From Actinomycetota bacterium (lineage in GTDB: Bacteria > Actinomycetota > Acidimicrobiia > Acidimicrobiales > Microtrichaceae), in NCBI GenBank assembly GCA_963169245.1, contig CAUJEC010000018.1:1-33771 (forward strand): DNA of 33,771 bases, written 5' to 3'. Below, piece by piece: positions 18,160 through 19,833 of this stretch. The translations under genes and the position numbers were made by a program. The first letter of the stretch is position 1. Every line of letters begins with the position of its first letter. Below the pieces are notes generated by a model. That model was not told the origin of the DNA. It did not search any database and was given only the letters and a program-made list of their open reading frames with translations.

Positions 18160-18204
18160 CGAGGGTCTGATCTGCCCACTCACATGAGGTAGATCAGACC
18201 CTCG
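18160..18204 (-). terminator. 14-bp perfect inverted repeat enclosing the stop codon of the phosphodiesterase gene
   Basis: CGAGGGTCTGATCT(18160-18173) 17-nt loop AGATCAGACCCTCG(18191-18204); stop codon (18180-18182, -) lies in the loop. Confidence 0.55.
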
Positions 18205-19685
18205 CCTATATCCCGATAGGCGACGCCGGTCTCGGACAGGGTCGAGTGCCAGTGACCACTGACCTGTGGATCTGCCTGTTCCATTCCGTGGTCGGAGATG
18301 ACCAGGAATGCGGTCTGGGCAAGGGACCCGGCCCGGTCGACTGCGGCCACGATCTCGCCGACCCTGCTGTCGCTGTCGATGATCGCCTGCATCGCCAGAT
18401 CTCCGTGGGGTCCGGAGCGGTGACCCGCCTCATCAGTCAGCGCGAGGCTGCACCACGTCAGAATTGGCAGTGGATTCCCAGCATCCTGGCCCCACGCGGC
18501 AATCGTTTGGTCCATACTCAGATGATCAACAGTCGAGTAGAACGCGTATTTCCCCTCCTGCGCCGCGACCGGGTTGACGTGACGACACTCAGATAGGTCA
18601 GGCAGGGCTCCCCCCGTACCCTCCCTGACCATCTCGAAGGTAGACATCGATGCACCTCGGTCACAGAACTCGAACGTCGCTGTCGTGTAGCCACCGGGCC
18701 GCTGTGTCGCGATCACCTCGAAGATCGTCTCAGTCCCCTCGGACAGATGCGAGGCCGACCAGAACATCTCCTCGAACGACAGCAGGTCAGGCACCTCGCC
18801 GGTAGACCGCTTGAGCCATGTGTGATGGAGAACACCGGAATGGCCAGGGTGTCGCCCCGTGATCTCTGCGGTGTGATTGGCAAGGGTCGCCGTAGGCAGC
18901 GATGCGACCATCCCGTGTTCCATCATCGAACCTGAATCGACCAGAGCCGACAGGTTCGGAGCATGGCCACTCACCATCACCTCGCGCAACAGGTTCGTGT
19001 TACAGCCATCGAGCAGGATCACCACCACGTGTGAGGCGCCGGAACCACTGAGTATGTGATCCAGAACACGACCGTCCTGTCCTCTCAGATGGCTGCCGTT
19101 GGAGTTAGGAGCCAGATCGAGGAGCGCAGCGATAGTCGGAGCTATGTCCACTGTCCGCTCGGCCGACGTGGTCACGGCCGACTGCCGGATCCCTGCACCT
19201 GATCCGATCATCAACGCCCGTGCCTGCACCACTCCCAGCGAACCGTGCTGACCGATATTGCCCTCCGGATCGAACTCTCCACTGCGACAGACATAGAGAT
19301 CAGGAGCATCGGGAGAGTCAAAGAACTGAGCGATGGACTCGAACGCGTTCGGGTACGTCTGGCTCGTCCCACCGTTCGCACCGGTCCGAATCCCGCCGGC
19401 TACGCCACTCGCTCTGTCGGCCTTCTCGGCCTCCAGCGATCCGATTGCAGAAATGGACTGCTCTGCCAGCGGATCGTTGCCACAAATCTCGGTCACCTCG
19501 AAGGACGAACCGAGGCCTTTGTGAGTCACCAGTGCGTCGGAACGTCGTCGCTCGAAGTTTACCGATCCGCTCGACGATGCGACCCGGTACTTGTCGACGC
19601 CGGGGCTGGAGAGAACCAGATCCACCTTGTCGCTCAGGTCAGAACTGACCAGTGCCTCCTCCAGAAGCCGGGCATCACGGTTCAT
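18180..19685 (-). CDS. Alkaline phosphatase superfamily (nucleotide pyrophosphatase/phosphodiesterase-like), motifs in permuted order
   Basis: VVVILLDGCNTNLL, SLPTATLANHTAEITGRHPGHSGV, DEAGHRSGP, VISDHGM; the C-terminal subdomain motif GQHGSLGVVQ...RTVDIAPTIAALLDL is at the N-terminal side. Confidence 0.88.
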   Translation of the reverse strand: MNRDARLLEEALVSSDLSDKVDLVLSSPGVDKYRVASSSGSVNFERRRSDALVTHKGLGSSFEVTEICGNDPLAEQSISAIGSLEAEKADRASGVAGGIRTGANGGTSQTYPNAFESIAQFFDSPDAPDLYVCRSGEFDPEGNIGQHGSLGVVQARALMIGSGAGIRQSAVTTSAERTVDIAPTIAALLDLAPNSNGSHLRGQDGRVLDHILSGSGASHVVVILLDGCNTNLLREVMVSGHAPNLSALVDSGSMMEHGMVASLPTATLANHTAEITGRHPGHSGVLHHTWLKRSTGEVPDLLSFEEMFWSASHLSEGTETIFEVIATQRPGGYTTATFEFCDRGASMSTFEMVREGTGGALPDLSECRHVNPVAAQEGKYAFYSTVDHLSMDQTIAAWGQDAGNPLPILTWCSLALTDEAGHRSGPHGDLAMQAIIDSDSRVGEIVAAVDRAGSLAQTAFLVISDHGMEQADPQVSGHWHSTLSETGVAYRDIGEGLIYLM

Positions 19686-19833
19686 GCCGCTCACCTTACA
19701 GACACGACCACTCGCTCGCGACTCCACGCCACAGGCGACATGATTCACCGGCGGACCATCCGCGGCGAACCCAACCCGTGCGCAGAACACCTTGCAAAAC
19801 GCGCTTGTGAGCAGTTATTGCTATGCGAATCAA

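Follow-up and report, generated by a model that had tools for sequence, protein, structure and literature searches.

Gene, coordinates and chain order

The window, by which we mean the whole stretch of 33,771 nucleotides analysed here, carries on its reverse strand a gene for a protein matching the Pfam family PF01663. Its neighbours, named from sequence, are a gene for an Rrf2-type regulator, which is divergent from it, and a gene for a glutamate dehydrogenase, which is convergent with it. The longest reading of the frame, 18180..19790 (-), starts from a GTG at 19790 and encodes 536 aa; the upstream extension that it includes shows no conservation among relatives. The conserved start is an internal ATG at 19685, with TAAGGTGAG just before it, giving a protein of 501 aa and agreeing with the limits of 18180-19685 set for the gene in the preliminary description. 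Residues are numbered here on the 501-aa form, i.e., the number in the 536-aa frame minus 35, so that H182 becomes H147. A TAGNNT-like -10 element lies a few bases ahead of the start codon in several relatives (L003, L010, L011, L012, L013, and L020), and its closeness to the start suggests that these genes may give leaderless transcripts. The features of the gene are as follows.

18180..19685 (-), permuted gene for a predicted phosphodiesterase, 501 aa (open reading frame comparison with relatives; PF01663 E 3e-30)
18180-18182 (-), stop codon of this gene
19086..19685 (-), residues 1-200, equivalent to the C-terminal lobe (C-lobe) of canonical relatives: helix, small beta subdomain, YPNAFESIAQFF helix, His motif, VDIAPT helix (hhalign)
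19239..19253 (-), GQHGS with the metal-ligand His H147 (H182 in the 536-aa frame), the last ligand in canonical proteins (invariant, n=23; equivalent to SPAP His491)
19113..19157 (-), RTVDIAPTIAALLDL helix, after the His motif (family alignment and hhalign)
19038..19112 (-), linker, residues 192-216, from former C-terminus to former N-terminus (position of domain B in the long relatives)
18183..19037 (-), catalytic core, residues 217-501, N-terminal in canonical relatives (A3 profile and Foldseek of a model)
19005..19016 (-), LLDG, metal-ligand Asp D226 (invariant)
18873..18896 (-), PTATLANH, nucleophile Thr T267 (invariant; aligned with PSLTFPNH of Xac NPP)
18408..18434 (-), DEAGHRSGP, metal ligands D418 and H422 (invariant; Xac NPP alignment)
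18282..18293 (-), DHGM, metal ligands D465 and H466 (invariant; Xac NPP alignment)
18183..18200 (-), C-terminal strand GLIYLM, the new C-terminus (aligned with canonical ALLYL after rotation)

From N- to C-terminus, the chain thus runs through a helix and a small beta subdomain, the YPNAFESIAQFF helix, GQHGS, the VDIAPT helix, the linker, LLDG, PTATLANH, DEAGHRSGP, and DHGM to the strand GLIYLM. The Pfam match to PF01663 is well above the curated cut-off (106.4 bits versus 23), starts only at residue 220 (255 in the 536-aa frame), and covers profile positions 1-239 of 342; in L060, a canonical relative of similar size, positions 1-330 are matched. For the NCBIfam equivalogs PafA, PhoY, and PhnA, the protein scores 24 to 27 bits, below cut-offs of 407 to 1000.

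Distribution of the permuted order

The family to which the protein belongs, referred to as T1, is matched in 28 of 61 close-relative genomes, mostly colinearly over nearly the whole protein, and the permuted order is common to all 22 close relatives that were aligned at full length, each in a single colinear stretch. In a survey of the window's class, with genomes drawn evenly and a threshold of E <= 1e-40, T1 was detected in 62 of 296 genomes and 43 of 149 genera, to which can be added 49 of 297 genomes of a second class (that of G145) and all five genomes of a third (that of G070). Most survey matches span about 480-500 of the 500 profile positions in one frame, with a minority of fragments cut by contig ends or frameshifts. 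Two frameshift-broken T1 genes were seen in draft genomes (L033:4953-6594 and L074:1022-2262), reflecting either sequencing error or decay. Named records carrying T1 are Microthrixaceae and Frankiales metagenome-assembled genomes. No T1 relatives were found on viral contigs, and plasmids gave no T1 match.

The canonical linear order, with the His ligand last, was found in no T1 member, the His motif coming first in all of them. Each motif occurring once and in permuted order, as first noticed in the window protein, holds there and in 51 of 51 family open reading frames scanned by motif using DHG; a stricter pattern of DHGM or DHGF leaves 37 of the 51 in order. An assembly or binning artefact of the metagenome-assembled source genome, a draft of 239 contigs with a completeness of 87%, is hardly credible in view of the identical order in many independent genomes, including the single-contig T1 carriers G005 and G034. 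Assembly error is excluded by this recurrence, and with it falls the alternative named in the preliminary description, namely orthologs of normal order and a mis-assembly at this locus. The swapped order is a real, long-standing natural rearrangement shared by related actinobacteria, with well over a hundred genomes carrying it.

Profile tests of circular permutation

The N-terminal halves of T1 were built into a profile (A2) and compared with an actinobacterial PF01663 family of canonical order (L050-L064). Using hhalign, A2 positions 25-181 align with canonical positions 346-487 at a score of 68.9 over 131 columns and a probability of 96%; no score above 23 came from 30 column-shuffled controls, and reversing the profile gave 18.7. 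Searched against the PDB, A2 gave individually weak matches (E 0.02 to 0.5), all of which, short beta-trefoil ones aside, are superfamily members, with the match falling on the C-terminal His region, namely ENPP4 315-377, sulfatase 288-326, iPGM 471-515, PafA 479-526, and an LtaS-type protein 289-326. The matches to designed beta-trefoils, confined to profile positions 27-64, are short and were taken as chance.

The whole T1 profile yields two separate matches to the canonical profile, one for the core (117, 245 columns) and one for the lobe (69). When the canonical profile is doubled, these merge into one continuous match scoring 174, which leads from the lobe of the first copy to the core of the second, and rotating the T1 alignment in silico gives 175 over 415 columns, spanning canonical residues 9-487 of 498. 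Canonical controls are flat on doubling (523 versus 521; 474 versus 474). Because the rotated and doubled alignments outscore the unrotated one and the controls do not move, the classical sequence test identifies T1 as circularly permuted. In the rotated alignment, the C-terminal GLIYL of T1 pairs with canonical ALLYL and the T1 N-terminal segment corresponds to what comes next, which places the cut, as judged from the alignment, immediately behind the (L/I)YL strand of canonical proteins. The earlier proposals of one complete domain with relocated termini, and of a protein ending where its own start continues, are both borne out by these comparisons.

A Pfam search in which the N-terminal half alone has no match might raise the suspicion that, with no permutation involved, a truncated NPP core has acquired an independent domain at its N-terminus by fusion. 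Such a fusion is very improbable: the N-terminal half aligns with the canonical C-lobe over most of its length (25-181 to 346-487) and supplies the His ligand that the core lacks, and the core has no C-lobe of its own. Fusion with an unrelated domain is ruled out at the sequence level by the hhalign lobe match and the rotation test. At this level, the comparisons show an ancestral chain of core plus C-lobe that has been rotated, with the old termini joined by the linker and new termini created after the (L/I)YL strand that follows DHG. T1 is thus very probably a natural circularly permuted hydrolase of the alkaline-phosphatase superfamily, of the NPP/type I phosphodiesterase kind, and forms a conserved family of Actinomycetota.

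Active site and predicted function

Seven metal-ligand or nucleophile positions (H147, D226, T267, D418, H422, D465, and H466) are invariant in the 23-sequence family alignment. In SPAP, one zinc is held by D300, H304, and H491 and the other by D49, T89, D345, and H346 (PMC3145672), and from this assignment the equivalent of H491 is the sole ligand on the moved segment. Likewise, H147 with D418/H422 would bind one metal in T1 and D226, T267, and D465/H466 the other, in a chain expected to fold into the usual alpha/beta sandwich. The superfamily mechanism relies on a Thr nucleophile, two metals, and a covalent intermediate (PMC3145672); in T1, Thr267 would attack phosphorus and a metal-bound water would free the product.

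The profile of the catalytic core (A3) matches Xac NPP (2gsn) with an E of 9e-27. Two AF2 models, from alignments of only 4 and 7 rows, are of low confidence (pLDDT 42.8 and 52.2, pTM 0.43 and 0.55), and the location of H147 in space is for this reason a presumed one. With the first of these low-confidence models, the Foldseek list was headed by Xac NPP (7n1s, E 3e-6) and further NPPs, over about 260-280 columns, which is the length of the core; the second, likewise of low confidence, gave no match below 1e-3. Xac NPP is therefore the best PDB match of the T1 core both by sequence and by (low-confidence) model.

In Xac NPP, Asn111 contacts the phosphate through bonding. Its equivalent is Asn in most T1 relatives and His in the window protein (GVLHHTWL) and its genus sister L002, as might be expected of a pseudo-enzyme that has retained the fold and lost hydrolysis in this lineage. 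Such a loss is unlikely, since neither the metal ligands nor the nucleophile vary in the 23-sequence alignment and the full motif set is present in all 51 scanned frames. For T1, the name phosphodiesterase denotes a function predicted from the fold. Since no signal peptide was seen in the 501-aa form of the window protein, an intracellular substrate is favoured, and a phosphodiester or nucleotide is predicted as the most likely one.

Genomic context

The arrangement of Rrf2-type regulator, T1, and glutamate dehydrogenase genes is confined to the window's genus, and the window's own order offers no conserved operon as a functional clue. The contexts outside the genus are conserved and differ from class to class. 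In other families of the window's class (L162-L179), T1 has rplM-rpsI-glmM-glmS on one side, in divergent orientation, and truA-rplQ-rpoA on the other, in convergent orientation. In the class of G145 (L121, L122, and L142-L161), the usual position of T1 is immediately downstream of a WhiB7-like gene (RGRPR hook) and facing an ABC1 kinase gene with partial similarity to MABP-1, in a block that also holds genes for a UvrD/PcrA-like helicase, a mycoredoxin, and tesB. A link of T1 to translation-inhibitor stress is possible in this class. The conserved contexts suggest that T1 is inherited vertically in these groups and serves in housekeeping or stress.

Comparison with known systems

With Xac NPP (2gsn, 7n1s) and PF01663 in general, T1 shares the core motifs, their order within the core, and the DxxGHxxGP element, and it differs from them in carrying the C-lobe, with the last His ligand, ahead of the core. 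The alkaline phosphatases PhoK/SPAP and PafA have the same Thr nucleophile and two-metal ligand set and a weak NCBIfam resemblance; in contrast to T1, which falls far under their curated cut-offs and belongs by Pfam to the Phosphodiest family, their order is canonical. The canonical actinobacterial PF01663 proteins (L050-L064) align with T1 over the whole C-lobe and core once the permutation is undone, although their order is core then C-lobe and their core is only distantly similar.

Another hydrolase superfamily has members permuted in nature whose catalytic residues have stayed in place, namely the SGNH hydrolases AlgX, AlgJ, and PatB (PMC9487903); their fold and chemistry are different, and they serve as precedent only. 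The alkaline-phosphatase superfamily is represented in a survey of structural outliers by phosphonoacetate hydrolase, which has an insertion and not a permutation (PMC3779223). Our search of the open-access literature found no report of a permuted member of this superfamily. Annotation that relies on motif order can overlook permuted members or label them as truncated. To our knowledge, descriptions of the superfamily presuppose one order of metal ligands.

Related architectures and origin

The closest relatives of both T1 halves occur in long proteins of 1181-1389 aa (L065-L068), which have a nested order of lobe A, core B, lobe B, and core A. Their genes are as follows.

L065:1121-4948 (+), long nested form
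L066:1074-4616 (+), long nested form
L067:1216-5244 (-), long nested form
L068:828-4994 (-), long nested form

Unlike T1, these proteins carry a complete canonical domain (domain B) between the halves and are predicted to be secreted, as they start with a signal-peptide-like sequence; the C-terminal end of L067 is an LPFTG-type anchor. Domain B is colinear with the canonical single-domain protein L093 (50% identity over 474 columns, versus L065). Core A is sister to the T1 cores (support of 95/86 in the full tree and 93/82 minus three long branches), and lobe A clusters with the T1 lobes at 89/89 in a C-lobe tree from which L066 lobe A is absent and in which the row L066_lobeB, taken from core sequence in error, is disregarded. 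Since domain B is canonical and core A and lobe A group with T1, the two halves of a permuted domain here enclose a canonical one. The genome of G070 contains both L065 and the T1 gene L043.

The linker between lobe and core is variable in length and, in the long proteins, includes an entire domain, which would leave room for a swapped dimer in which the N-terminal lobe of one permuted chain completes the core of another. We regard this as quite unlikely, for lobe and core lie in one chain in canonical proteins and only some tens of residues make up the linker in T1. The permutation of T1 itself might go back to a tandem duplication whose outer halves were lost, or to a similar path through a nested form like the long relatives, and the latter may resemble a permutation intermediate. 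Pot II inhibitors provide a precedent for tandem duplication with circular permutation (PMC2259423). Together, the large conserved permuted family and the nested form constitute a natural experiment on how a metalloenzyme copes with relocated termini.

A second permuted PF01663 family, T2 (L058, L083-L088, L097, and L102), comprises proteins of about 560-680 aa with N-terminal hydrophobic sequences, often encoded in several copies per genome and predicted to be mostly membrane-anchored or exported. Here too the C-lobe precedes the core, with the cut lying later in the canonical chain than that of T1, and the score against the canonical profile rises from 57 to 81 on doubling. In the core tree, canonical groups fall between T1 and T2; the AU test does not reject one permuted clade (p 0.25), and independent origins of T1 and T2 are for this reason not claimed. 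A permutation series within Actinomycetota, from canonical proteins through the nested lobe A/domain B/core A form to T1 and T2 with their different cuts, produced by duplication or nesting followed by trimming and possibly more than once, is a tentative reading whose chances we put slightly short of even.

The window's genome also encodes a canonical-order relative of 387 aa (L076:1273-2433 (-), contig C231), which ends in GRHGSLTADEMYVPLLVYR, so that both orders coexist in one cell.
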